This document shows positions 2,031 through 63,815 of a stretch of DNA of 64,000 nucleotides, in pieces (the stretch's first letter is position 1; each line of letters opens with the position of its first letter). A program made the position numbers and the translations under genes. The stretch lies in assembly GCA_021018995.1 (NCBI GenBank), contig CM037595.1, forward strand, positions 94,314,491 through 94,378,490. The letters run 5' to 3'. Source of the stretch: Chloranthus sessilifolius (taxonomy: Eukaryota; Streptophyta; Magnoliopsida; Chloranthales; Chloranthaceae). The notes beneath the pieces were generated by a model. It saw only the letters and a list, made by a program, of their open reading frames with translations. It did not search any database and was not told the DNA's origin.

Positions 2031-2860
2031 TCAGACGGGGACACCGACATTATGGACATCGACTATGGGCCATATCGCGTGTACCGACATTGGAAGAAGC
2101 GGAACGGGAACCAGAACCAGGCCTAAAGGAAGGAAAGCTCACTGCCCGAAGTCGATCGAGCGACTTCACTTCCCGTTCGAGCGAGAATGCTTTAAAAATA
2201 AGGCCAAACTTTCGGCTAAAAGTCGCTCGAGCGAGCATCGGTTGTCGCTTGAGCGATCCCATGTCGTGTTTTGACTTTTTTGTGTTTTTCTAGGTTTTCT
2301 TTGATTCAAATGTAGTCATTTTAGGGTAGTTTCATAATTTTTATTGTTTAGGGTTTTTCTATTTTGAGGCCTCCTATATAAGGTCATTATTAAGCATTGT
2401 AAAAATTGATTATTGATAAATGAAAAGAGCTATTTGCTTTTGGCTTGTGATGAGCTCGTAAAAGAGTGAATCTTCTTTCCCGTGAAGGGTTTGGTGTGAA
2501 GCCAAGTGTGCGAAGCCGACAATTTCCTAACTCCTAAACCCTAGATTTCACCCGAGCCATTAAACCAACCCGAATCAACAAACCCTGAAAGAACCAGTGA
2601 TTCTACCTTGGATCTTCGGGCAAGCGCCCTAATCTCGAAGATGCTAGAGCTCTATCTCTAGGATCCCCCTTTTGCTAAGCTAACGGACCTAGCGCATCGG
2701 ACTGAACCCTAGTCGGACCAAACGTGATCACCCAACGAAAATCTATGAATTCCTAAGGTATCATGAGTATTTTGAGATTTTGCTTAATTCATTTAGTTTA
2801 ATTTTGGCACATTCTCATTTCATCGTCATTCACAAGTTTTAGGGTCATCGTCCCGCGTTA
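2031..2860 (+). repeat. 5' LTR of G1
   Basis: The LTR starts at a degenerate form of the family's TGACGGGGAC start and ends in CCGCGTTA just before the primer-binding site. It contains a TATA-like box (CCTATATAAGG, about 2371), the CACCCGAGCC segment shared with the LTRs at 50.2 and 62.6 kb, and a block of GTCGCTCGAGCGA-type palindromes at 2151-2258. Confidence 0.75.
2151..2258. repeat. Palindrome block in G1 LTR U3
   Basis: At least four copies of short palindromes built on CTCGAGCG (for example GTCGATCGAGCGAC, GTCGCTCGAGCGA, TCGCTTGAGCGA) lie upstream of the TATA-like box. The position matches the TCGATCGATCGA block in the G3 LTRs. Confidence 0.8.
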
Positions 2861-3040: not shown

Positions 3041-6000
3041 ATGGACATGAGTGAGGTTGTCGATGCTCTTAGGGGCATCCGAGTTGATTTGTGTGCGATC
3101 AATGATAGGATGACTGCCATGGGACAATCCCAAACAACCCTGAAGGCTTCCAATGGTAGACTGTTTGACCGAGTCAATCGGTTAGAAGGGGTTGATGAGC
3201 ACCTTGATCAACACCGTGAGCGTGATGGTCCAAGCTTTGAACGCGGTGGTCATCAGAATGATCAGAATCGGAACCATAGGGCAGATCGTCACGGAGATGA
3301 TACGACCCGGATGGAAGACTCCTCAAGAACGTTCGAGTTGAGTTTCCAACCTTTGATGGGTGAATGGACCCTAAAGTCTTCTTCGATTAGATCTCCAATA
3401 TGGATCAACATTTTGAGTGGTATGGTATGAGTGACGAACGATGTGTTAGGCTCGCCAAGATGAAGCTCATCAGCCAAGCTTGACTCTTTTGGGCCAACGT
3501 AGATCGCATAAGAGTGAATGCGGGTTGTGCTCCCACTGCCCGTTGGGAGGACATGAAGGTACGACTTATAGAGAAGTACTATCCTTTATCATACTACCAT
3601 CGCCTACTTGATCAATGGCAAAGTTTATGCTAAGGTTGTATGCCCGTGACCAAATTCATTGCCAAATTTGAAGAGTTCATGATGAGATCCAAGGTATCGG
3701 AAGATCCTCAAGTCACTCTCCAAATTCAGCACCAGATTGCGATTGGAATTGCAAAAAAAGTTGATCTCTCACCTCGTTGAAACTCTTGAAGAGTGTTATG
3801 CCGTTGTTGAAGACCTTGAATGATATTTGAAAATGACGGTGGTGAGGCGACTTGAATCACATACCGGTCAACATTGTGCCGGAGAGGTGAGGCTTAGTGC
3901 TGGAAACCCACCTTCCAAACCTACACAACCCACTCCTACTAATGTGAGGTTTGACAGAGGAAAAGGTGTGGTTGGAGAATCCTTGAGGGGTGGTTCTCAC
4001 ATCAAGTGCTATAAATGTCAAGGGTTGAGACACTTTGCCGCCTAATGCCTTACAAGGGACCCTTAAAGGAATCTCTTCATTGAGGGAGAGGGAGATGGGG
4101 ATGATAGAAATGTTGAGGAAGAAGTCTTCTAGCCGGATGTCACACCTAGTGATGAAGAAGGTGATGATAGTGGTAGTGCTTTAGTTGTAAGGTGTGCCCT
4201 TGCACAACTTCAACGGGATGAAAATGAGGATTGGCGTAGGGAAACATCTTCCACACCTTCGCCAAATGTGGAGAGAAGAGTTGTAGGGTTATCGTAGATA
4301 GCGGGAGTTGCACCAATGTTGTGTCGACACACACCATCATTCGTTTAGGGCTTACACCTGAAGCTCACCAGAGACTATACAAAGTCTCATGGGTTGACTC
4401 TTCATCCATTCCCGTGTCTCAAAGATGTTGTGTGCCGATTTAGTTGGCCTCTTATTCAGAAATTGATTGTGGTCGTGGCCCTTCTTGGTCAATCTAACAT
4501 ATGCACATTCATGTATAAGGGTAAGAAGATCACTTTAAACCCCTTACCTCCCAAAACACCATCGACTAACAAAGTAGAAAAGAAGGGCGGCCAATCTAAG
4601 ACCATCAACATTGTGAGCCCTTCGAAGTTTGAAAGAGCGTCTGTGGATGAGAACGTGGTATATGTTGTCATCATCGTCGAGTGTGCTCTCGAGTCAGTGG
4701 AGCAGATTTTGAAAGACTTTGCGGATGTCTTCCCAGAAGACTTACCTAATGAGCTCCCTCCAATGCGTGACATCTAACACGCCATAAACTTAATTCCCAT
4801 ATCTACTCTACCGAACTTGCCCCATTATAGACTGAATCTGGTTGAACATGTCGAGTTAACACGACAAGTTGATGAGCTCCTTCGAAAGGGGTTCATCCAA
4901 GAGAGCTTGAGCTCTTGTGCCATACCCGCACTACTCACACCCAAGAAAGATGATACTTGACGAATGTGTGTGGATAGTTGGGCCATCAACAAGATTACTA
5001 GTAAGTATCGGTTTCTTATACCGTGGCTCGACGACATGTTGGATATAATGGTTGGTGCCACTATCTTCTCCAAGATAGACCTCAAAAGTGGCTACCATCA
5101 GGTCCGTATTCGTTCAAATGATGAGTGGAAAACCGCTTTCAAGACCAATGATGGTCTTTATGAGTGGACGGTCATGCCTTTTGGGCTTTCTAATGCCTCA
5201 AACACTTTCATGAGGCTCATGACCCAAGTGTTGAGGCCTTTCCTAGGCAAATTCCTTGTGTATTTTGGTGACACCTTGATCTATAGTCACAGAGGTCGTT
5301 GAATTTGAGCGCTTGAAAGATGAGTATCCCGAGTGCCCGAATTTCGGGATGGAGTACAATGCTCTCCTTGATAATCCAACCAACACTAACTCCAAGTATA
5401 CCCTTTAAGACGAGTATTTGTTCAAAGGCAATCGCCTATGCATCCCTCGCACTTCGTTGCGTGACTTCCTTATTTGAGAGTTACATGTCGGAGGCCGAAC
5501 ATTTCGAGCATAACAAGACCATTGCGCTCGTAGAGGATAGGTTATATTGGCCTAGCCTAATGAGAGATGTTTCTCGAGTTGTGAATAAATGTCGTACATG
5601 CCAAGTGTCCAAATAGAGCAAACAAAATACATGTCTGTACACCCCTTTACTCATGCCACACACACCGTGGCAAGACATCTCGATGGATTTCGTGCTTGGA
5701 CTCCCTAAGACTTCGCGAAAACACGATTCCGTTTTTGTGGTAGTGGACCGCTTCTCCAAAATGGGTCACTTTATACTGTGCTTCAAAACATTCGATGTAA
5801 CTCACATTGCTAAATTATTTTTTGGAGAGGTTGTGCGTCTCCATGGGTTCCCCAAGACCATCATGTCAGGTAGGGACGTTAAGTTCACTAGTTACTTTTG
5901 GAAGACCTTGTGGCACATGATGGGTACCATGTTGCAGTTCTCTTCGGCCTATCATACTCAAACTGATGGCCAAACAGAAGTCACCAATAGAAGCTTAAGC

Positions 6001-6753: not shown

Positions 6754-7893
6754 TGTGATCAGGGCTAATTAGTTACAAAAATTAACCCTCAAACTTCTAT
6801 TACTACGACTTAGAGTAGATTAGGAATAGGATACTAATGTGTCCGTGTGTTTGTAGGAAATAGATACCCAAGGAGCAGAATGGAGGAAGATCTGTTGCAA
6901 GAAGTGCTTAGAAGAAGCTGGAATTGATATGGGTCGCTCGAGCGACTTTGGTTTTCGCTCGAGAGAGAAGCATTAAAAGAAGACACTAAAATACTCGAGT
7001 AAAAGTCGCTCAAGCGACTTTGGTTTTCGCTAGAGCGACCTCTCACGATTTGTATTATTGCTGACGAATGTTGACTTTTTCAGGGAAGCCCTAGCCAAAG
7101 CATATAAATAGAAATTGAAAAGGAGGAAATGAGAATTTCTTGCGAGGCAGAGGCTGAAAAGGAGAGCAAAGAAACCCTAACTCTTAGAAAGGAAAGTTGG
7201 AAGAGATGGAGCATTCTACCATCGTGGAAACCTTTGTCATGCGTAATGAAGTGTAGCTTCGTTTTGAGGGTTTGTAGTTGCTTGTGGTTATGATTGTAAA
7301 AGTTGCACTACTTTGACCTTTAATGGAATAAATTATTGTTGACTGTTATTCACTTTATCTTTTGCTTTGATACTTCTTGTCGAAATAAGAGCGGAGATAG
7401 ATACTTTTTGATTAATTTTAGATATGCGATCTAGGATTTACCTATGTTCAACAAGATGTGTATGTTTCTTAATGCCGTGTGATTAAGATGAGACTTGCCG
7501 AGAGGGTATGAATCATCGTTAATTGATGAATCATGCAAAATCAGTAGTCTCATATTATGAGCAAGGAATTAATTGATCTCGAAATCTGAGTAGAGCTTGT
7601 AGCTCTGTGAAGGATATTTCTTTCATAAATTAAATCAAGTAAACTCGAACCCGACTCACGAAAGTGACGTGGAGTTATGACCCTTGATTTTCTCCCTGTT
7701 TGCAACCCAAAGATTTCGCTAATTAGTTTACGAGTTTTCCTTTCATAAGAATTTTATCTTTGCACAACAACTTTGCTTTAGAAAGTAACAATCAATTAGG
7801 GATGATCTCATACCAATCCCTGTGGAATTGGCACCTGGACTCAAGTGCCATGCTATACCTTAAGTCACTTGCTGGGTTTAAGTGATCGAACCA
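6754..7893 (+). mobile_element. LTR-like sequence, Tat/Athila-like, boundaries uncertain
   Basis: No coding sequence is visible. A G-run (TTTGGGGGTG) is followed by TGATCAGGGC, which resembles a PPT-LTR junction. There is a TATA-like CATATAAATAG at about 7100, and near 7815 the wording CCAATCCCTGTGGAATTGGC, reminiscent of U5 regions of plant Tat/Athila LTRs. The right end and a second LTR were not found, so this is a solo or truncated LTR at best. It holds a CTCGAGCG palindrome block at 6933-7040. Confidence 0.4.
6933..7040. repeat. Palindrome block (GTCGCTCGAGCGAC) in LTR-like sequence
   Basis: GTCGCTCGAGCGAC, TTCGCTCGAGAG, GTCGCTCAAGCGAC and TCGCTAGAGCGAC occur within 110 bp, upstream of the TATA-like box. 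Word and layout closely match the block in the G1 chromovirus LTR at 2151-2258, although the surrounding LTR is different. Confidence 0.75.
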
Positions 7894-43585: not shown

Positions 43586-43655
43586 CCGTCACGACGCCCA
43601 CGGACGTCCGTGACCTACGGACAGTGAGGGGGCAAAATCACGAACGTCCGTCACT
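43586..43655. repeat. Palindrome block (CACGGACGTCCGTG) in LTR
   Basis: The perfect 14-bp palindrome CACGGACGTCCGTG (43599-43612) and a second related CGAACGTCCG (43641) lie in the U3 position of this LTR, where other LTRs of the lineage carry different palindromes. Confidence 0.8.
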
Positions 43656-47809: not shown

Positions 47810-48709
47810 TGGCGCGGGACGGGAACCCAAAAATGCGTGAATATGATTTTGATGCGATTTGCAGAAATTTAATAAAATTAATTCAAGATTAATCCCAAAA
47901 TTATCATGATACCTTCGGGTTCGTAGAATTTCGGTAGGTAAATCACGCGAGATCCGAATAGGGTGTTCAATCCGATGTGCAAGTCCAGTTAGATTTGAGG
48001 TGGGAACGGGCCTAGAGATAGGACTCTAGCTTTTCCAGGCTTGGGCATTCGTCTTTGATCCGATATAGATTCATAGGTTCGAACTAGGGTTGTAGGATTG
48101 GATAGGTTTGATGGCTCAAATGAAAACTAGGGTTTTGATGGAAATAGGTTTTGGGTTTTTGATTAGGGATTCAATATGGGTAATGGATTATAAGAGAAAG
48201 ACAAAGAAAATATACGGCAAAGATAATTAAAGATCAAAGAGAATAGATGGGAAACACTCCCTTGGTCCCACACCAAACCCATCTCGGGAAGAAGAATATT
48301 CAATCATAAAGCATTCAAACTATTCAATAATCTCTTAAAAAGTGTTTGCAAGCCTCTATATATAGGCCACCAATAATTAATTCGAAATATAAAAAAAGTC
48401 GTAAAAGAAATAAAAAACTAAAAAGGCAGTTTTCCGAATAAATAAAAATCCCACATCGGTAGCGGAATCGTCCCACGGCGCCTTTGTGACATTGTTCATA
48501 ACGTCGTGGCATAGCGCTATGGTCTTGTTCACAGCGTCTTTGTGTACAGTCTGTGGGATTGTTCCTGATATGGCATATAGCACCCGTTTCGTCATTCACG
48601 TGGCTATTTTCAAGTCACAATGAGCACTTCTTTTTTTCTTTTCTCCCTTGAAGCTGAAAATTTTGTTGCGGCCCAACTCCAATGCTCTCGATCTTGACGT
48701 TCCCTGTCA
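47810..48709 (-). repeat. 3' LTR of G2
   Basis: The plus strand starts TGGCGCGGGACGGGAACCC and ends CCCTGTCA. It matches the partial 5' LTR at 63816 onward over its first ~180 bases. It has the family TATA-like CCTCTATATATAGGCC near 48352 and a CATAGCGCTATG palindrome at 48510-48521. Confidence 0.85.
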
Positions 48710-50168: not shown

Positions 50169-51242
50169 TGACGGGGACGCCGACATCGTAGACATTGGAT
50201 ATGGACCGTTTCGTGTATACCGACGTCGAAAGAAGCAGAATGGAAATCAGAACTAGGCGAAAGATGAAAATTCTGGAGAACTGGAGGAACACAGCAAATT
50301 CGATCGATCGAATTTATTTTCGATTGATCAAAAAACTCGATCGATCGAGTTCTTGTTTCGATCGATCGAACAACAGTGAAAGGAAAAACACATGTTCTGG
50401 AGTATATAATTCGATCAATCGAATTATATACTCGATCGATCGAGTTTCAATCTCGATCGATCGACTTCCTGCGGCAAATTATGGATGTATATATTTTCGA
50501 TCGATCGAGTTTCACTTTCGATCGATCGAATTTCACTTTCGATCGATCGAAATCGCGCAGTTTTTTTATTTGGTATTTTTTTAAATTTCGAACTTAATTT
50601 TAGGGGCATACTTATCCTTTTAGTATTTGTTTTAGGGTTTTATTTTCGTTTGAAAATAAAACCCTAAAGTTAAACAATGTAATTAGTTATTGATTATTGA
50701 ATGAATGAGTGTTTGCTTTTGGAACTTGAGATGAATTTCTTCGAAGAGTGATTCTTCTTCCTGAGAAGGCTTTGGTGTGAAGCCCCCAATCTATCCTTGT
50801 TTACTGTATCCTTTTAATCTATCTTTCTTGCTTTACTTCAAACAAACTAAATCTGTCATCCCCCATCCAAATACCCGACTCCCAAAACCCTAGCTTTTCC
50901 CTAGGCCATTGAATCGATCTGATTCAACAACCGTAGCCTCCATCAGACTATTAAGCCTAGCCATATCAAAATAAACAGAAAACCAGAGATTCCATCATTG
51001 CACTGTGAGCGCCCTAATCTGGAAATCTAGAGTTTTATCTCTAGGATCGATCCGCACTACAACCTAACGGATCTCATGCCCGGACTGGACCTTACTCGAA
51101 TCATACGCGATCCCCCAAAGGAATACTACGAAAGTATAAGGTATTCGCTATATTTAGGGTTTAATGTTTAATTTAATTCGATTCAATTTCGGCAATCAAT
51201 TAATCATTGCATTCACGTAGTTTAAGGTTTCGTCCTGCATCA
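50169..51242 (+). repeat. 5' LTR of G3
   Basis: 1,074 bp, TGACGGGGACGCC...CCTGCATCA. It contains the TCGATCGATCGA array 50299-50552 and the CACCAAACC/GAAGAGTGATTC segment common to the lineage. The segment 50793-50892 is in opposite orientation to that in the 3' LTR. Confidence 0.9.
50299..50552. repeat. TCGATCGATCGA palindrome array, G3 5' LTR
   Basis: About ten copies of perfect or near-perfect TCGATCGATCGA palindromes, most with matching flanks (TTCGATCGATCGAA, CTCGATCGATCGAG). It includes a 34-bp palindrome with arms GAGTATATAATTCGAT at 50400-50433. Confidence 0.9.
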
Positions 51243-51832: not shown

Positions 51833-52738
51833 TGACGCGGGACAACGACCCTATAATGCAGAATATGATTTTTATGCAGGTTTTGCCGAAATTAATGAAA
51901 TTAACTCAAGTTTAATCGCAAAGTTATCTTTGATACCTTTAGGGTTTTGCAGAATTTTTTATGGGTAGATCACACGCGATCAAGGTAGGGTCCAGTCCAA
52001 TGCGCAAGTACTTTTCGAATCGAGGCGAGATCGGCCTAGAGATAGAAGTCTAGCTTTTTCCAAGCTTAGGCACTTGTCTTCGGTCCGATATAGATTCACG
52101 GATTCCAAGTTGGGTTGTGAAAGGGATTTGCGGTTTGCAATAGGCTTATGATTTTCGGATCGGTTTATGGTTTGGAACAGGTGTTGGCAATGTTTGAATT
52201 AGGGTTTTAAAAGGGTTTAGGGTTTTTGGGAAAGCAAGAAAACAATTAGACTAAGGTTTTAGAAAGCAATCACAGATCGAGAAAGAGCAAATAGAATAGA
52301 GAATATAACAATAGCTTTGGGAATCACTCCCTTGGCCTCACACCAAACCCATCTCAAGCAAAGATTACTCAAGCATAAAAGCATTCAAATAATCAATCAA
52401 CTAACGAAAAGGTATTTACAAGCCTCTATATATAGGCCACCAATAATTAAGTTCGAAATAAAAGAGTTCTAATACTAATAAAACACAAAAAAAATGAAGT
52501 TTTGCATGAAATCCCCGTCTGAAGTCGTGTCGTAGCTCACTCGAGCGACCTTAAGTGATCGCTCTCGCGACTTCAAAGGCTCGCTCGCGCGAGGGCTCTC
52601 TGCGGCATTGTTCTCCTGGCTGTTTGTGTCTGTTTCTCCTCTGAGGCTACGGTACTAGGGTTTCCTCTACGCTTCTTCCGACGTTGATAAAAACGATGTG
52701 GTCAAAATCCGATGTCCATGTATGTGGCTTCCCCGTCA
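51833..52738 (-). repeat. 3' LTR of G4
   Basis: 906 bp, TGACGCGGGAC...CCCCGTCA on the plus strand. TATA-like CCTCTATATATAGGCC near 52424. It carries the short version of the palindrome block (52534-52595). Confidence 0.93.
52534..52595. repeat. GCTCGCGCGA palindrome block, short form
   Basis: About three units (GCTCACTCGAGCGACC, GCTCTCGCGACTTC, GCTCGCTCGCGCGAGGG) in U3 of the G4 3' LTR. Confidence 0.85.
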
Positions 52739-52839
52739 ATTCCCCCGGACCAAATAAGTTTCATCACCGATGAAACACGCTCGTGGTAGATGTCAATCAG
52801 ATCGAGGTTCAATCGGCGGACCTCATTCTCGTGGATCCA

Positions 52840-55800
52840 AGTGTTTTCGAACTCCGGTTTACCGACTCATTTAACCAAGTATTTATGGAATCCCCTGTCA
52901 TGTCTAGAGACGACATTATCATTGATTATATCCTCTATTTCATCTGTTCTCTGTCTGCTTGGGGAAGGAAGTGGTAGAGGTTGCAAGGTTGGGTTGGGAC
53001 TAGACGATGGTTGGAGTGGATTTTTAGGAGGTGGGGTGAAACCCAAATAAGGAACCAAGTCCTCCACGTTGAGCGTTGAACTAACCCCCGTACCTGGAGG
53101 AAACTCGAGCACGTATGCATTAGGACCACTCTTAGCCAAAATTCTAAAAGGACCAGCGCTCGAGATTGGAGCTTTTTTGCGGATCCCAATGGGAACCGCT
53201 CAAGCCTAACCCGGACCATCACATAATCACCCACATGAAATTCTTTAGAACGCCTATGAGCATTTGCAGATAATTTATATTGACTGTTGCTTGAATTAAT
53301 TTTCTATTTAATTTCGGCATGCAAGCTATGAATATGTTGTGCAAATGCATCGGCAGACTCTAACACTCTATGGGATGCAGACATGGGGATCAAATCTAAT
53401 GGGGCCCTAGGCCTATGACCATGCACTACCTCAAAAGGACTCATGCCTATGGACCTATTGATAGAATTGTTATATGCAAACTCAGCTATGGGTAAGATGG
53501 TATCCCAGGTCCTAACATGATCACCGACAAGACTACGAAGGAGATTCCCAAGGCTCCTATTGATGCTTTCGGTTTGGCCATCCGTTTGAGGGTGGTAAGC
53601 TGTAGAGAATTGGAGCAATGTGCCCATCATGTGCCAAAGGGTCTTCCAAAAATAACTAGTGAATTTAACATCCCTATCAGACACAATGGTTTTGGGCAAC
53701 CCAGGAAGACGCACTACCTCCGCGAAAATCGGTCCACTACGACATAGATGGAGTCGTGCTTCTTAGGGGTCTTAGGAAGTCCAAGCACGAAATCCATAGA
53801 GAGGTCTTGCCACGTATGTGTGGCACGGGTAACGAGGCGTACAAGCCGGTATTTTGTTTGGTTTGTTTTGACACTTGGCAAGTACGACAATGCTTAACGA
53901 CCCGGGCGACATTTCTCATTAGATTAGGCCAAAAGAACCTATCCTCTACGAGCGCAACAGTTTTATTACGCTCGAAATATCCTGCCATCCCTCCAGCATG
54001 TAACTCTCAAATGAGAAAGTCACGCAATGAAGTGCGAGGGATGCAAAGGCGATTGCCTTTAAACAAGTACCCATCTTGGATGGTGCACACAGAGTGTGTG
54101 TCAGTTGGGTTACTAAGGAGAGCAGTGTACTCAACCCCAAAATTTGGGCACTCAGGGTACTCATCCTTTAACTTTTTGAACCCGACGACCTCGGTGCTCA
54201 TTGTGCGCAAAGTCACCACTCGCCAACTAAGTGTATCAGTGACCTATTTTATTTATGCTTTAACACGAATGTGAACCCTTGAAGGTACTCAACCCACTTC
54301 GCGTGCCTTGGGTTCAACTTCATCTGTAAAGCAAGAAAGCGTAAGGCTTCATGGTCAGAGAACAGCACAAATTCCTGCGGTCTAAGGTAATGTTTCCAAT
54401 ACCAGAGAGATCGGACGACCGCATAGAACTCCTTGTCATAGGTGGAGTATTTTTGCTTCGCCTCGTTAAGTTTTTCACTAAAATAGGCCACGGGGTTACC
54501 CTCTTGGCTAAGCACTCCTCCTATGCCTACACCCAATGCGTCGCATGCGACTTCAAAGACTTTGGAAAAGTTTGGCAATCACATGACGGGTGCACTACTC
54601 ATTCGTTGTTTGATCTCAGCAAAGGCTTTTGTCGCCGCTTTGCCCCATTTAAGGTCTCCTTTTTTATGCAATCTGTAATTGGGGCCATAATGGTGCTAAA
54701 GCTTCTGATGAAGCGACGACAGAAAGTAGCCAAGCCATGGAAGCTGCGGACATCATGTATGTTCTTAGGTTTGGGCCACTCCACAATGGCTTTAACCTTT
54801 TCGGGGTCCGCGACCATTCCATCAGCCGAGATAATAAATCCCAAGAAAACAACAGATCGTTGCATGAAGGTGCATTTCTTGAGATTTGCAAACAACCTCT
54901 CGCCCTTGAGGGTTTCACAAACCAGCCTAAGGTGGGTCAAGTGTTGTTCCTTGTCATGACTGTAGATCAAGATGTCATCGAAATAAACAAGGAATTTGCC
55001 TAGAAACAGCCTCAACACTTGGGTCATGAGTCGCATGAAAGTACTCGGGGCGTTAGAAAGCTCAAATGGCATGACCATCCACTCATAAAGACCATCCTTA
55101 GCCTTAAAGGCGGTTTTTCACTCATCACCGGGGCGGATGCAGACTTGATGGTAGCCACTCTTAAGGTCTATCTTTGAAAAGATAGTGGCACCAACCATCA
55201 TATCGAACATATCATCGAGCCTTAGTATGAGAAACTGATATTTAACCGTAATCTTATTAATTGCACGGCTATCCATACACATGCGCCACGTACCATCTTT
55301 CTTAGGAGTGAGTAGGGCAGGTACGGTACAAGGGCTCATGCTCTCTTGGATGAACCCCTTCTGAAGGAGCTCATTGACTTGCCGAGTCAATTCGATGTGC
55401 TCAACCGGATTCAACCTATAGTGGGGCAAGTTCGGTAAGGTAGATCCGGGAACCAAGTCTATGGCGTATTGGATATCACGCAGGGGAGGAAGTTTGTTTG
55501 GTAAGTCTTTAAGGAAGACATCTATAAACTCTTTTAAAATCGGCTCACCCTCCTTGGGACACGCACTCTCTGATTTGGGGTGTACTCTCAACAGTGACAA
55601 CTACGTACACCACACTCTCATCTAACGATGCTTTCTCGAAGTCAGAAGGACTCACAACATTAACGGCTTTAGAAGATTCGCCCTTCTTTTCGACGGCGTC
55701 GGTCGATGGTGTTTTAGGAGGCAAAGGGTGTAAGTAATCTTTTTGCCCTTATGTATGAACGTGCATATGTTTGATCGACCAGAAAGAGTCACATTCATGT

Positions 55801-57290
55801 CGTAGAGCCATGGCCTTCCCAAATGATATGGCTCACATCCATCGGCACCACATCGCACCATAAGGTGTCTGAATAAGAACCTAACTGAATCGGTACACGA
55901 CACCTTTTCGACATGGGGATGGATGAAGAATTGACCCATGCGACTTTATAAGGTCTCGGGTGGGCTTCAGGTGTAAGCCCTAAGCGGCGTACTGCATGAG
56001 TTGATATTACGTTAGTACAACTACCGCTATCCACGATGACCCTGTAATTCTTTTCACTAAATCTGGCAAAGGTGTGAAAGATGTTCTCCCTTCGCCAGTC
56101 ATCCTTTTCATCCCGATGAGGCTGTGCAATGGCACACCTCACAACTAAAGCATGACCAATAGCATCACCCTCCTCATCACTAGGTGTGCCAACCGGTTCA
56201 ATTACTTCCTCTTCAACCACTACCTCATCATCATCCTCCTCTCCCTCGATGAAGAGAGTCCTTTGGGGTTCTTTCGTAGGGCATTGGGCGGCAAAGTGTC
56301 CCATCCCATGACATTTATAGCACTTTACTTGAGAATTAACCCTTGAGAATTCTCCGACTACACCTTTTCCCCTTTCAAACCTTGAATTCGTAGGGGCAGG
56401 TTGTGTAGGTTTGGGAGGAGGATTAAATCGTCCCTCACCGGATCGTTGACCGCTATATTGTGACTCGGTCCTCTTCACCACCGTAGTTTTCAAGTACCGT
56501 TCAAGATCTTGCACAAGCATAGCATCTTTCAAGAGTTTCCACAGGGTGAGAAATCAACTCTTTTTGCAAATCAAGTCGCAATCCGATGCGGAATCTAGAG
56601 AGAGTGATTTCAGGGTCTTCCGATACTTTTGCCCTCATCATGAACTCTTCGAATTTGGCAATGTAGTCAGTCACGGGCATACTACCTTAGCGTAACTTTT
56701 GCCACTGGTCGAGGAGGCGTTGGTGGTATGATAAAGGAATATACTTCTCAGTAAGTCGTTCCTTCATATCATCCCAACGGGTAATGGGAGGACAACCCGC
56801 ATTTACCTTGATGCGCTCGGCATTGAGCTAGAAAAACCGAGCTTGACCAACTAATTTCATCTTAGCAAGTTTAACGCAAAGGTCGTCATTCATGGCATAT
56901 CAATCAAAGTGTTAGTCCATGTCAGAAAGCCAATCGAGGAAGACGGTAGGGCCCATTCTTCCATCGAAAGTCGGAATCTCAACTTGGACGTTCTTAAGGA
57001 GTTGAACTTTGGGGTCATAGTCATCTCTACGATGATTCCTACGGTTCCGGTTGTCTTGGTGACCATTACGTTCAAAGTGAGGGCACTCACGCTCTTGGTG
57101 TTGATTTTCCAGCCCACCCATCGCTTCTAGTTGATTGATTCGATCATGTAATCTACCATTACCAACTCCTAGGGATGTTTGGGCTTGCTCTATGGTATTC
57201 AGATGTGCATTAATCGCACCCAATTCCTCTCGCATAGCTCTAAGAGTATTAAGAACCTCATCCGAAGCCATGGTGATCACAAAGTTTATT
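52840..57290 (-). pseudogene. gag-pol remnant of G4
   Basis: Minus strand from the right: gag MASDEVLNTLRAMREELGAI near 57270; zinc knuckle CYKCHGMGHFAAQC near 56310; protease DSGSCTNVISTHAVRRLGL near 56030; RT 55600-54600 with [13 protein letters not shown] near 55160 and [17 protein letters not shown] near 54970; RNase [21 protein letters not shown] near 54510; integrase zinc region CRTCQVSKQ near 53880 and core [20 protein letters not shown] near 53660; C-terminal region ending near 52850. Long stretches stay open, but the frame is broken in a few places. Confidence 0.88.
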
Positions 57291-57387
57291 AAGGTTCTAA
57301 TATGGAATGCAATATGGACTAAAAAATGAAAAAAAATGCAATAAACTAAATATGACAAGCAAAGATGCCCTAACCTAGAAAACCTAG

Positions 57388-57400
57388 GGCTTTGATACCA
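57388..57400 (-). other. Primer-binding site of G4
   Basis: The minus-strand TGGTATCAAAGCC lies next to the 5' LTR, one mismatch from the tRNA-iMet type site. Confidence 0.85.
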
Positions 57401-57404
57401 AAAC

Positions 57405-58403
57405 TGATGCGGGACAGCAACCCTAAAATGCGGAATATGATTTTTATGTAGGTTTTGCCGAAATTAATGAAATTAACTCAAGTTTAATAGCAAAGTTATC
57501 TTTGATACCTTTAGGGTTTTGCAGAATTTTTTATGGGTAGATCACACGAGATCCAGGTAGGGTTCAGTCCGATGCGCAAGTACTTTTCGAATCGATGCGA
57601 GATCGGCCTAGAGATAGAACTCTAGCTTTTTCCAGGCTTAGGCGTTCGTCTTCGGTTCGATATAGATTTACGGATTCCAAGTTGGGTTGTGAAAGGGATT
57701 TGCGGTTTGCAATAGGCTTATGATTTTCGGATCGGTTTATGGTTTGGAACTGGTGTTGGCTATGTTTGAATTAGGGTTTCAAAAGGGTTTAAGGTTTTTG
57801 GGAAAGCAAGGAAACAATTAGGCTAAGGTTTTAGAAAGCAATCACAGATCGAGAAAGAGCAAATAGAATAGAGAAGATAACAATGGCTTTGGGAATCACT
57901 CCCTGGGCCTCACACCAAACCCATCTCAGGCAAAGATTACTCAAGCATAAAAACATTCAAATAATCAATCAACTAACTAAAAGGTGTTTACAAGCCTTTA
58001 TATATAGGCCACCAATAATTAAGTTCGAAATAAAAGAGTTCTAATATTACTAAAACACAAAAAAGGGAAGTTTCGCATAAAATCCCGTCTGAAGTCGTGC
58101 CATAGCTCGCTTAAGCGAGGATTATCATCGCTTGCGCGACCTTAAGTGATCACTCGCGCAACTTTAAGTGATCGCTCGCGCGACTTTAAAGTAGTCTCCA
58201 TAGCTCGCACGTGAGGATTATCATCGCTCGCGCGACTTCAAGGGCTCACTCGCGCGAGGGCTCTCTGCGGCGTTATTCTCCTGACTGTTTGTGTCCGTTT
58301 CTCCTATGAGGCTACGATACTCGGGCTTCCTCTACGCTTCTTTCGACGCCGATAAAAACGATGTGGTCCAAATATGATGTCCATGTATGTGGCATCCCCG
58401 CCA
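57405..58403 (-). repeat. 5' LTR of G4
   Basis: 999 bp, TGATGCGGGAC...CCCCGCCA on the plus strand. It carries the long version of the palindrome block (58104-58260), which accounts for nearly all of its extra length over the 3' LTR. Confidence 0.93.
58104..58260. repeat. GCTCGCGCGA palindrome block, long form
   Basis: About eight units, such as GCTCGCTTAAGCGAGG, GATCGCTCGCGCGACTTTAA and CATCGCTCGCGCGACTTC, including repeated AGGATTATCATCGCT linkers. Same position as the short block in the partner LTR. Confidence 0.88.
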
Positions 58404-61400
58404 CCAAGCCTGACTCTTTTGGGTCAACGTTGAACGCATCAGAACGAATGCGGGTTGTACCCCCATTACCCGTTGGGAGGACATGAAGGAACGACTTACA
58501 GAGAAGTATGTTCCTTCATACTACCATCGTCTCCTCGACCAATGGCAAAATCTGCGCCAAGGTAGTATGCCCGTTTCGGATTACATTAGCAAATTTGAGG
58601 AACTCATGATGAGAGCCAAGGTATCCGAAGACCCTCAAGTCACTCAATCCAAATTTCGCACCGGATTGAGACTTGACTTGCAAAAAGAGTTGGTCTCCCA
58701 CCCTGTAGAGACTCTCACCGATTGTTACACTGTCGTTCAATACCTTGAACGATATTTGAAAGTGACGGTGACTAGGCGATCTGATTTTCACCCTGGTCAA
58801 CTCCGTACCGGCGAAGTGAGATCTAGTGCTGGAAACTCGCCTACCAAACCCACACAACACATCTACCAATGTGAGGTTCGACAAAGGTAAGGGTGCGTCT
58901 CATGTCAAGTGTTATAAATGTCAAGGATTGTGACACTTTGTCGCCCAATGCCCCACAAGAGACCCACAAAAGAATCTCTTCATCAACGGAGAAGGAGAAG
59001 AAAGTGAAGGAGTTTATGAGGAAGAGGTCTTTGAGTCGAATGCCATACCTAGTAACGAGGAAGGTGATGACATAGGTCGCGCTCTAGTTGTGAGGTGTGC
59101 CTTTGCACAGCCTCAACGGGATGAAAAGGAGGATTGGCGAAGGGAGAACATCTTCCACATTGTTGCGACATGTGAGACAAAGAGTTGTAGGGTAATCGTG
59201 GATAGCGGAAGCTGCACCAATGTGGTGTCAGAACATACCGTCACCTGCTTAGGGCTTACACCTGAAGCCCACCGAGACCTTACAAAGTCGCATGGGTTAA
59301 CTTCTCATCCATTCCCGTATCTCAAAGGTGTCGTGTACCCATACAGTTGGGTTCATATTCAGACACCTTATGGTGCGATGTGGTGCCAATGGATGTGGGC
59401 CACATTATCTTAAGGAGGCCATGGCTCTATGATTTGAACGTGACCATTTTTGGTCGATCTAACATTTGCACATTCAACTCAAGGGCAAGAAAATCATTCT
59501 TAACCCTTTGGCTCCCAAAGCACCATCGGTCAATAGAGTTGAGAAGAAGGAAGGCCAATCCAAGGCCATTAACATTGTGAGCCCTTCAGAGTTCGAGAGG
59601 GCATCGTTAGATGAGAGTGTCGTGTATGTCGTCGTCACTATTGAGAGTACTTCTGAGTCAGTCTGTGAGTACCCCAAGGAGGTAGAGCCCATCCTGAATG
59701 AATTTGCGGATGTCTTCCCCGAAGACTTACCTAATGAGCTCCCTCCCATGCGTGACATTCAACATGCAATCGACTTGGTTCCCGGATCTATACTACCGAA
59801 CCTCCCCCACTACAGGTTGAATCCGGTTGAACACGCCGAGTTGACTCGACAAGTCAGTGAGCTCCTTCAAAAGGGGGTCATATAAGAGAGTCTGAGCCCA
59901 TGTGTTGTACCAGCATTACTCACGCCTAAGAAAGATGGTACATGGCGCATGTGTGTGGATAGTCGTGCGATTAATAAGACCACTGTTAAATATCGGTTTC
60001 TCATACCACGGCTTGATGGCATGCTTGATATGATGGTTGGAGCCACTATCTTTTCCAAGATAGACCTTAAAAGTGGCTACCATTAGGTGCGTATTTGCCT
60101 TGGCGATGAATGGAAAATCTCCTTCAAGACCAAAGACGGTCTTTATGAGTGGATGGTCATGCCTTTTAGGCTTTCCAATGCCCCGAGTACATTTATGAGG
60201 CTTATGACCCAAGTGTTGAGGCCCTTCCTTGGCAAATTTCTTGTCGTGTACTTTGATGACATCTTTATTTGCAGTCCAAACAAGGACCAACACACTATCC
60301 ACCTGAGGTTGGTTTGTGAAACCTTGAGGGGAGAGAGGTTATACGCGAATCTCAAGAAGTGCACCTTCATGCAGCACTCCGTTGTATTCTTGGGATTCAT
60401 TGTCTCGGTAGACGGGATGGTTGCGGACCTTGCGAAGGTTAAGGCCATTGTGGAGTGGCCCAAACCTCGGAACATTCATGAAGTCCGTAGCTTCCACGGT
60501 TTGGCCACGTTTTATTATCACTTCATCCGAAACTTTAGCACCATCATGGCTCCCATTACCGATTGCGTGAGAAAAGGGGAGTTCATGTGCAACAAAGACG
60601 CGACGAGGGCCTTTGCCGAGATAAAAGATAAGATGGTTACCGCACCCGTCATGCGCCTACCGGACTTTTCTAAAGTCTTTGAAGTAGCATGTGACGCATC
60701 GGGTGTAGGCATAGGCGGAGTGTTGAGCCAAGAGGGTCACCCTGTGGCCTATTTTAGTGAGAAGCTCAATGAGGCAAGGCAGAAATACTCCACCTATGAC
60801 AAGGAGTTTTATGCGGTCATCCGATCTCTGTGGTATTGGAAACATTACCTGAGACCGCAGGAATTTGTATTATTTTCTGACCACGAAGCCTTATGTTTCC
60901 TTGCTTCCCAGAAAAAGTTAAACCCAAGGCACGCGAGTGGGTCGAGTACCTTCAAGGGTTCACATTCGTATTGAAGCATAAGGCCGATGCCGAGAACAAG
61001 GCCGCTGATGCGCTTAGTTGTCGAGTGGTGACTTTGCAGTCTATGAGCACCGAGGTCATCGGATTTGAGCAATTGAAACAAGATTATCCTGATTGCCAGA
61101 CTTTGGGGCAGAATACACTGCTTTCCTTGAAAATCCGAACAACATCAATTCCGAGTATACCCTGCTGGATGGGAATTTGTTCAAAGGAAATCATTTGTGC
61201 ATCCCTCATACTTCATTGCGTGAATTCCTTATCTGGGAGTTACATGTTGGAGGGATTGCCGGACATTTTGGGCACGATAAAACCAGTGCGGTCGTTGAGG
61301 ATAAGTTCTATTAGCTTAGCCTTGTGAGAGATGTTTCTAGGGCCGTAAAACAGTGTCGTACATGCCAAGTTGCGAAGTATATCAAACAGATACCAGCTTG

Positions 61401-62575
61401 TACACCCCTTTACCCGTGCCGCATACCCCGTGGCAAGACCTCTCTATGGATTTCGTGCTCGGACTTCCAAAGACCCAACAGAAGCACAATTCCATTATTG
61501 TGAAAGTGGACTGCTTTTCCAAGATGGCCCACTTCCTACCTTGCTCTAAAACCTCCGATGCAGCGCACATAGCCAAATTATTTTTCGGGGAGGTTGTACG
61601 TCTACATGGGTTACTTCAAACGATTGTGTCGGATCGGGATGTGAAGTTTACCAGTTATTTCTAGAAAACTTTATGGCACATGATGGGTACCATGCTCCAA
61701 TTTTCTTCGGCCTATCATCCTCAAACAGATGGCCAAATGGAGTCCACCAATAGGAGCTTAGGTAATCGTCTCCATTGTCTTGTTGGTGATCACCCTAGTA
61801 ATTGGGATTCTATTTTGCCTTTAGCCGAGCTTGCATACAACAATTCAGTCAATAGGTCCCTAGGAATGATGAGTCCTTTTGAGGTCGTCCTTGGTCATAG
61901 GCCTAGAACACCCATCGATCTAATCCCCATGTCTGCATCCCATTGAGTTTCAGAGTCATCTGATTCATTTGCACAACATATACATGAATTGCATGCCGAA
62001 ATTAGAAAAAGAATTAATGCAAGCAATGAACAATAGAAAATATCTGCGAATGTGCATAGGCGCTTCAAGGAATTCCAGGTTGGAGATTACATAATAGTCC
62101 GGGTTAGGCCTGAGTGCTTCCCATTGGGAGCCGCAAAGAAACTTCAAGCCCTTAGTGCTGGACCTTTTAGAATTGTGGCAAGGAGCGGACCTAATGCATA
62201 TGTTCTCGAGCTTCCATCGGATATAGGGGTCAGCTCTACATTCAATGTGGAGGACCTGGCTCCTTCTTTGGCCCCAGTCCCATCCCCTCACAACCCCTTC
62301 CAAGCAGCCCCGAGCCCAAATGCCAGCCCCACCCTGCAACCCCTACCCTTCCCTTCCCCATGCAAGCAGCGCAGAGATGAGATCGAAGGGATACTAGATG
62401 ATTTGGCGGTATCCACCCATAGGGGTAGAATTCAAAAGTACTTGGTCAAGTGGTTGGGAAAGCTGGACTCCGAGAACTCATGGTTAGCTAAAGACGAGGT
62501 GCGACGCCTGGACCTCGACATGCTCGAGCGCTATCGCGACGCCGCTGTGATGAAGCCTTTTCGGCCCGGGAGAAT

Positions 62576-63639
62576 TGACGGGGACGCCGACATCGTAGAC
62601 ATTGGATATGAATCGTTTCATGTATACCGACGTCAGAAGAAGCGGAATGGAAATCAGTAGCGAAAGAAGCGAAAGATGAAAATTCTGGAGAACTGGAGGA
62701 ACACAGCAAATTTGATCGATCGAATTTATTTTCGATCAATTCTTGTTTCGATCGATCGAACAGTAGCGAGAGGAAAAACACATGTTCTGGAGTATATAAT
62801 TCAATCGATTGAATTATATACTCGATCGATCGAATTTCCATTTGATCGATTGAGTTTCAATCTCGCTCGATCCACTTCCTGCGGCGAATTATGGATGTAT
62901 ATATTTTCGATCGATCGAATTTCACTTTCGATCGATCAAAATCGCACAGTTTTTTTTATTTGGTATTTTTAAAAATTTCGAACTTAATTTTAGGGACATA
63001 CTTGTCCTTTTAGTATTTGTTTTAGGGTTTTATTTTCATTTGAAAGGACTCCTATATAAAGTCCTTAAGTTAAACAATGTAATTAGTTATTTATTATTGA
63101 ATGAATGAGCGTTTACTTTTGGAACTTGAGATGAGTTTCTTCGAAGAGTGATTCTTCTTTCCGAGAAGGGTTTGGTGTAAAGCCAAGGGTTTTGGGAGTC
63201 GGGTATTTGGATAGGGGATGACATATTTAGTTTGTTTGAAGTAAAGCAAGAAAGATAGACTAAAAGGATATAGTAAACAAGGATCGATTCAACAACCCAA
63301 GGTTGTTGAATCGATCCGATTCAACAACCGTAGCCTCCATCAGACTATTAAACCCAGCCATATCAAAACAACAAGAAAACCAGAGATTCCATCATTGCAC
63401 TGTGAGCGTCCTAATCTGGAAATCTAGAGTGCTATCTCTAGGATCGATCCGCACTGCAACCTAACGAATCTCACGCCCGGACTGAACCTTGCTCGAATTA
63501 TACGCGATCCCTTAAAGGAATACTACGAAAGTCTAAGGTATTCGCTATATTTAGGGTTTAATGTTTAATTTAATTCGATTCAATTTCGGCAATCAATTAA
63601 TCGTTGCATTCATGTAGTTTAAGGTTTCATCCTGCGTCA
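62576..63639 (+). repeat. 3' LTR of G3
   Basis: 1,064 bp partner of 50169-51242, preceded by a purine tract (GGCCCGGGAGAAT). It has the TCGATCGATCGA array 62712-62940, a TATA-like CTCCTATATAAAG near 63050, a ~100-bp inverted segment 63185-63284, and a hairpin (CGATTCAACAACC, GGTTGTTGAATCG) at 63284-63313. Confidence 0.9.
62712..62940. repeat. TCGATCGATCGA palindrome array, G3 3' LTR
   Basis: About eight palindromes of the same type as the 5' LTR array, several decayed at CpG. It includes a perfect 34-bp palindrome with arms GAGTATATAATTCAATC at 62790-62823. Confidence 0.9.
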
Positions 63640-63815
63640 ACACGACTTACTAACACAGGTGCTAAATGACATGCCAACATGAACCATAATAGATGAGGAA
63701 TTTTGTCAAACAGTAGACGTGCGTACTTTTGAATACAAATGAGATAAAATGCAATGAAAATTAAAATGACACAATATGCCCTAACCTAGAAAACCTAGGG
63801 CTCTGATACCAAAAC
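63640..63815 (-). other. G2 leader and primer-binding site
   Basis: This is G2 sequence resuming after the G3 insertion. The primer-binding site at 63799-63811 reads TGGTATCAGAGCC on the minus strand, an exact tRNA-iMet type site. Between it and the insertion lies the untranslated leader, with CACGACTTACTAACAC matching the G1 leader near 3020. Confidence 0.85.

Follow-up and report, generated by a model that had tools for sequence, protein, structure and literature searches.

Repeated palindromes in plant LTR promoters are described in the Sireviruses, a group of Ty1/copia elements. According to the passages of PMC2829016 drawn on here, Sireviruses carry 8-32 copies per element of palindromic motifs proposed to be binding sites, mostly in the upper half of the LTR ahead of the TATA box, with further copies before the ENV gene. 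In the same passages, a CGG-CCG signature with a variable gap is reported for 12 of 13 published motifs, motif clusters coincide with CpG islands, and such motifs are given as absent from classic Ty1/copia elements. Maize Sireviruses have a palindrome-rich, rapidly evolving LTR cis-region, and one of their palindromes is also common in Helitrons (Bousios et al. 2016, as relayed in parts of PMC10760457 and PMC5311732). Host-factor sites in other plant LTRs include the ONSEN heat element, the EVADE W-boxes and the BII boxes of Tnt1, whose subfamilies are differentially regulated (excerpts of PMC12786077 and PMC3316501).

The arrays analysed here, from the 2.17-Gb genome of Chloranthus sessilifolius, resemble the Sirevirus repeated motifs without belonging to them, and by analogy these are a close precedent; the original prediction that no named system of this kind exists fails against the account in PMC2829016. 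In both cases a repeated palindrome is clustered upstream of the TATA box, the word varies from element to element around a short constant signature, and the array part is CpG-island-like, here by its observed/expected ratio; the LTR region is palindrome-rich, like the maize cis-region in the parts of the sources cited. The Usier (Sirevirus) motif GTCGGACGTCCGAC has CGGACGTCCG in common with the word ACGGACGTCCGT found here, and the Tnd-1 (Sirevirus) motif ACAATCGATTGT, without the CGG-CCG signature, contains ATCGAT (both as given in the source excerpts). Unlike in Sireviruses, the host elements are Ty3 chromoviruses together with one or more additional LTR families, the motif is an ungapped 12-mer with a TCG..CGA frame and a ~21-bp phase, CGG-CCG occurs solely in the ACGGACGTCCGT word and not in the TCG-N6-CGA words, and the word changes inside one LTR group of one genome. 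VANC targets of VANDAL elements, likewise tandemly expanded short motifs that vary among related elements, are by analogy the nearest co-evolving motif arrays, but VANDAL elements encode their own binder and the motifs (YAGTATTAY) lie in one orientation outside an LTR promoter (PMC5735166 and PMC10398659, in the parts used). ONSEN, EVADE and Tnt1 resemble our proposal in having host transcription factor sites in the LTR, but the excerpts of PMC12786077 and PMC3316501 report neither a fixed palindromic frame nor a phased array in high copy. Among the literature matches listed (titles and abstract starts, subscription literature being mostly outside this scope), there was no Ty3/chromovirus case of such arrays, and of 210 papers with one or more of five word strings, the 20 listed had no apparent link to transposons in title or opening of the abstract. 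Two patterns run against a viral contig collection gave two contigs (apparent simple TCGA repeats) for one and none for the other.

The window, meaning the whole 64,000-nucleotide stretch analysed, consists of nested LTR retrotransposons of a single chromovirus group (Table 1), with the chromovirus traits SH3_Tf2-1/Chromo, a methionine-tRNA-type PBS and LTR pairs with target duplications. In the element designated G3, the LTR starts with TGACGGGG and ends in ...GCATCA (CA terminus), a PBS-like TTTTGGTCTCAGAGC lies directly 3' of the 5' LTR, and the flanks carry a duplication-like ACATG/ACACG with one difference. Its domains, RT and RNase H (60087-60974) and then SH3_Tf2-1 and Chromo (62052-62657), are in Ty3 order; the Chromo match, preceded by SH3_Tf2-1, scores 24.2 bits, just below the curated cut-off of 25.1, and the chromodomain ORF (62052-62660) terminates ~85 bases into the 3' LTR. 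A Pfam scan of six ORF pieces taken from elements in the window found ordinary gag-pol domains in five and no match in the sixth. The G1 PBS-like site, TTTTGGTATCAGAG, compares with TATCAGAGC, the methionine-tRNA PBS given in the consulted part of PMC2829016. Apart from the arrays, the two G3 LTRs carry a 104-bp stretch in opposite orientations (50788-50891 and 63186-63289, 95% identity in reverse), which adjoins short inverted repeats, and a perfect 34-bp palindrome (62790-62823) spans a decayed word in the array of the 3' LTR.

Table 1. Positions of LTRs and palindrome arrays in the window.
Feature	Position	Strand	Details
G1 5' LTR	2033..2856	+	Approximate ends
G1 array, word TCGCTCGAGCGA	2152..2256	.	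Starts 2152, 2173, 2223, 2245; 1 perfect
Array in an otherwise unrelated repeat, word TCGCTCGAGCGA	6934..7038	.	G1-like spacers; upstream of TATA-like ATATAAATAG near 7102
G5 LTR words	43600..43651	.	ACGGACGTCCGT at 43600, ACGAACGTCCGT one-off at 43640
CATAGCGCTATG in G2 LTR	48510..48521	.	Rejected as array member
G3 5' LTR	50169..51240	+	Chromovirus element; from self-alignment with 62576-63639; approximate ends
G3 5' array	50300..50550	.	10 TCGATCGATCGA copies (8 perfect; mismatches in the other two: 1 and 2)
G3 5' array copy starts	50300, 50320, 50337, 50358, 50411, 50432, 50453, 50497, 50518, 50539		
G4 element	51833..58398	-	Inserted into G3; flanked by duplication CCAAG
G4 LTRs	51833-52738 and about 57402-58398	-	
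G4 3' LTR array	52537..52592	.	3 copies, 22-bp spacing
G4 5' LTR array	58107..58257	.	TCGCTCGCGCGA, TCGCTTAAGCGA and variants; spacing 21-22 bp, one gap of 52
G3 3' LTR	62576..63642	+	Pairs with 5' LTR
G3 3' LTR array, word TCGATCGATCGA	62712..62939	.	8 copies with ≤2 mismatches, 3 perfect

Palindrome blocks had been proposed in the U3, upstream of a TATA-like box, from one reading of the window; they are real there and, by genome-wide counts, more extensive than claimed. About ten copies had been expected in the G3 5' LTR, and ten were found. The G1 block, put at 2151-2258, holds four, forming two pairs 21 and 22 bp apart, of which the copy at 2152 is the asymmetric TCGATCGAGCGA. Palindromes were confirmed in G4 as six and three copies (≤2 mismatches, CTCGCG/CTCGAG type) in its two LTRs, the main word TCGCTCGCGCGA being a near-palindrome (5/6 pairs), and the word assigned to 43599-43612 is accompanied by a one-off copy. 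The G2 word was mistaken, with 9 copies in the genome as against 36 for its reversed control.

Genome-wide, TCGATTAATCGA occurs 241,617 times (reversed control 55), TCGATCGATCGA 42,168 times (84) and TCGCTCGAGCGA 30,274 times (141). The control is the pattern read backwards, so that CpG is traded for GpC, and it should overstate chance because the genome is CpG-poor (observed/expected 0.64). The frame common to the arrays is a 12-bp palindrome, usually TCG-N6-CGA, mostly repeated every 20-22 bp; the outer letters, TCG/CGA or ACG/CGT, are kept across words, and the central six bases vary (ATTAAT, ATCGAT, CTCGAG, TTCGAA and GACGTC, with few copies of ATGCAT, CATATG and CCTAGG). Pairs of TCGN6CGA at 19-23 bp number 212,674 (control 3,637), compared to 3,499 at 24-28 bp (control 669), and 4 of 20 random 10-kb regions hold such a pair at 19-23 bp. 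ACGN6CGT pairs number 5,232 (control 424), and pairs with G/T as first inner base 1,232 (control 62), nearly all of the latter, among the matches listed, being TCGTTCGAACGA or one letter off.

We sampled 20 LTR stretches from ~100 listed places of a conserved R-side anchor (1,994 plus-strand and 1,986 minus-strand matches genome-wide, controls 0 and 0), all on contig C1, together with 7 window LTRs; 15 of the 20 have one anchor type and 5 the other. Palindromes of ≥10 bp were scored in 27 U3 blocks against 1000 dinucleotide shuffles of each. As the original prediction had it, palindrome density exceeds that of shuffled U3 in many blocks: at most 10 of 1000 shuffles were equally rich for 13 of the 27 blocks, and at most 50 for 17, with none of 1000 matching the G3 5' array. 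R-side control stretches (300 shuffles) gave 1/20 at the 1% and 2/20 at the 5% level, and in both positives (L042, L044) words extend into the control stretch. TA microsatellites inflate the scores of L030 and L039, and the miss at L036 concerns a truncated LTR. Taken singly, the G1, G2, G5 and left G4 LTRs were not significant (181-249 of 1000 shuffles), and the G1 and G5 words rest on their genome-wide counts.

The arrays lie upstream of the R side in LTRs whose other sequence aligns. In 31 LTRs examined (words with ≤1 mismatch, TATA-like 10-mer with ≤2), the distance from last word to TATA-like box is 93-138 bp in 24 of the 25 having both, and 175 bp in the other. Copies per LTR are 10 and 8 in G3 (≤2 mismatches) and 0-10 in the other sampled LTRs (≤1 mismatch). 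Not all LTR copies have a full array: L041 has the anchor and no word, and L005, L029, L037, L043, L047 and G5 have one or two words. The observed/expected CpG ratio is 1.87 in the array part, compared to 0.65 in the TATA-R part and 0.64 in 20 random 10-kb regions, and is higher in the array part in 27 of 30 LTRs.

Neighbouring sampled copies (pairs taken within 18-24 bp) are 20-22 bp apart in 62 of 68 cases. The centre is fully symmetric in 94 of 182 sampled TCGN6CGA sites, a sample enriched for LTRs, compared to 2/33, 2/50 and 1/21 for the control frames AGC..GCT, TGC..GCA and GTC..GAC. Over 106 array copies, flank symmetry is weak at position 1 (50 vs 41.6 expected, p 0.02) and absent at positions 2-8, so that the symmetric unit is ~12 bp. 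The half-way form TCGATCGAGCGA, an asymmetric join of ATCGAT and CTCGAG, has 705 copies genome-wide (352 + 353), ~43- to 60-fold fewer than either word joined in it. The claim that symmetry and not letters is conserved is thus upheld by the rarity of this form and by the symmetry stopping at the edge of the 12-mer, but not for the outer TCG/CGA or ACG/CGT, which are fixed. All 83 sampled neighbours (perfect copies of seven words) are of like word, and CTCGAG-ATCGAT neighbours at 19-23 bp are absent from the whole genome (0 pairs). Exceptions, among the matches listed, are ATCGAT or ATGCAT beside ATTAAT and TCGATCGAACGA beside TCGTTCGAACGA, for homotypy; TCGTTCGATCGA pairs, for symmetry or homotypy; and TCGACTGTTCGA and TCGACTTTGCGA, regular asymmetric members of some ATTAAT arrays. 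At C1:229221-229439, ATTAAT arrays with these two asymmetric members lie inside a higher-order repeat.

A tree of the non-array part of the LTR was built from 31 rows (34 hits, from which one duplicate, one second hit and one truncated hit were dropped), of which L047-L050 were chosen because they bear arrays, and L005 and L047 are long-branched and uncertainly placed. The word follows the LTR family, since word classes require 6 changes on this tree compared to a mean of 13.6 when shuffled. This agrees with the prediction that the word changes by family, but some words recur: CTCGAG and GACGTC lie in separate clades, each requiring two or more gains or losses where branch support is good, and words are shared with a second LTR family, which we take to be Tekay/Del-like. 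In the latter, L014 (outer element) and L018 have ATTAAT, an insertion in L014 bounded by TTGAA on both sides has the CTCGAG type and L045 has TTCGAA; array-adjacent sequence is alignable (75% over 370 bp, 94% over 85 bp) and the words differ, and six ORFs of L014 and L018 gave PPR repeats in one and nothing in the others. The expectation that LTRs align while their palindromes do not is true between word classes, but three of the words cited for it have TCG-N6-CGA in common.

One cassette is common to unrelated repeats. With words held fixed, the spacers of the array at 6934-7038, in a repeat that is presumably Athila/Tat-like, match those of G1 better than all of 2000 realigned shuffles. Its 200-bp flanks are matched as well by 13/300 (upstream) and 91/300 (downstream) shuffles against G1, and by 182/300 and 296/300 against L032. 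Because the spacers match G1 and the flanks have no convincing match, we read this array as a cassette transfer into a repeat otherwise unlike G1, as judged from these alignments. The G1 spacers clearly match those of the related LTR L053 (0/500 shuffles as good), which indicates that some shared words are due to descent and not convergence; their match to G4 is weak (15/500), and no match is seen with the CTCGAG arrays in L044, L048 or the L014 insertion (192, 219 and 196 of 500 shuffles equal).

Arrays of homodimer sites would account for the constant position, the two-turn phase, the 12-bp symmetry, the homotypy and the recurrence of words. We consider it somewhat more probable than its denial, on sequence grounds, that the blocks, about 95-140 bp before the TATA box in the U3 promoters of LTR retrotransposons, are upstream activating arrays in which homodimers of host proteins bind phased sites. 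Each site in these mostly homotypic clusters would comprise two inverted 6-bp half-sites, ungapped and two-fold symmetric, and sites about two helical turns apart would let adjacent homodimers line up along the same face of the DNA, with each array bound by homodimers of one sequence-specific host protein. The variation of the central six bases between families would probably reflect the use of different members of one host protein family, the outer TCG/CGA (or ACG/CGT) being the putative contact common to that protein family. Words would change through expansion of new sites and exchange of whole cassettes between elements, and not by gradual drift. We infer protein binding, its host origin, activation and the mode of word change from the pattern of the arrays. 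Counting against this reading, 39 of 182 sampled TCGN6CGA sites have no more than one of their inner pairs symmetric, and the TCG-N6-CGA frame was not matched to any known plant factor. More tentatively, and with more doubt than conviction, the words could make up a finite palindromic address code, a fixed frame with roughly six central words, each with its own homodimeric reader from one host family; lineages would swap or regrow these as cassettes, partitioning host factors among competing families, and the pool of words would move between lineages independently of element phylogeny.

The original prediction had offered a binding array for a dimeric factor, a hairpin or replication feature, and a module replaced to escape small-RNA silencing; the sequences favour the first. 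Because any two palindrome copies pair, the arrays would fold into chains of 12-bp hairpins, and their predicted RNA folding is far above that of shuffles (G3, 271 nt, z -9.0; G1, 121 nt, z -3.35). This strong folding makes possible, though in our view unlikely, a role as RNA or single-strand structure, with U3 hairpin chains or cruciforms serving RNA dimerisation, packaging or, as has been suggested for maize Sireviruses, small-RNA feeding or decoy. Homotypy would suit it equally, maize Sirevirus palindromes are small-RNA hotspots in the parts of PMC10760457 and PMC5311732 used, and decayed centres lean weakly to the wobble-tolerant side on the sense strand (TG 14, CA 6). However, hairpins require only inverted copies and not palindromes, a spacing of 21 vs 26 bp should matter little to them, and stems end at the word both inwards and outwards, save for a weak signal at the first position outside it (34 against 27.4 expected, p 0.011). 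Tandem growth by itself also yields homotypy and regular spacing, and a neutral minisatellite, a palindromic 21-bp unit amplified by slippage or unequal exchange and hitch-hiking in a tolerant U3, is a reading we hold to be quite improbable. The two LTRs of G3, and likewise those of G4, do differ in array copy number while their aligned-column divergence is even, substitution in the array being no faster than elsewhere in the LTR (6-8% in four parts of G3, 6-12% in three of G4; the 82% given by self-alignment is that of a gapped BLAST alignment spanning U3). Yet spacers within an array differ while the words remain alike, the asymmetric hybrid TCGATCGAGCGA occurs without amplification, and different LTR families have a similar frame and spacing.

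Tandemly grown short motifs that differ among related elements are also the VANC target pattern (PMC5735166, in part), and the CpG richness of the arrays would suit anti-silencing of the VANC/VANDAL kind, in which an element-encoded or co-opted binder strips methylation and co-evolves with its motif. We rate this as very unlikely, since unrelated elements use the same words, the scanned ORF pieces of the window offer ordinary gag-pol domains or nothing, and VANC21 motifs have one orientation in the cited part of PMC5735166 while the words here are mostly palindromic. Scarcely credible is a single ancestral motif altered by CpG decay alone. Decay does explain variation within arrays: in 16 ATCGAT-class LTRs, with 43 perfect, 42 one-change and 19 two-change copies, 38 of the 42 single changes are CpG transitions, and ATCGAT may have given ATTAAT by a double CpG transition. 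But ATCGAT, CTCGAG and TTCGAA differ from each other by paired transversions, GACGTC differs in its outer letters too, and the outer CpGs are retained in ATTAAT arrays. Pure decay is hence rejected for most words and could survive only for ATCGAT-ATTAAT, in keeping with the earlier expectation that the words are not one CpG-decayed motif.

A single 12-letter palindrome reaches ~240,000 copies in one plant genome, and in LTR promoters it is replaced by sister words of the same frame and spacing. Provided that these are binding sites, as we favour, a single DAP-seq or pull-down experiment could reveal the drivers of a large share of the retrotransposons of this genome, and the long-standing question of regulator change in LTR families would become testable. 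The arrays would extend Sirevirus palindromes to Ty3 elements, which suggests that palindromic promoter arrays are a wider strategy of plant LTRs. In L017, TCGCATATGCGA palindromes (4943-4981 and 5590-5605), two of them ~20 bp apart shortly before a TATA-like box, are possibly a further word. In L046 (1240-1310), TCGATGCATCGA words lie ~200 bp 3' of a PBS-like GCGCCGTTGCCGGGGA, and hence in the leader, not the U3, of another element.
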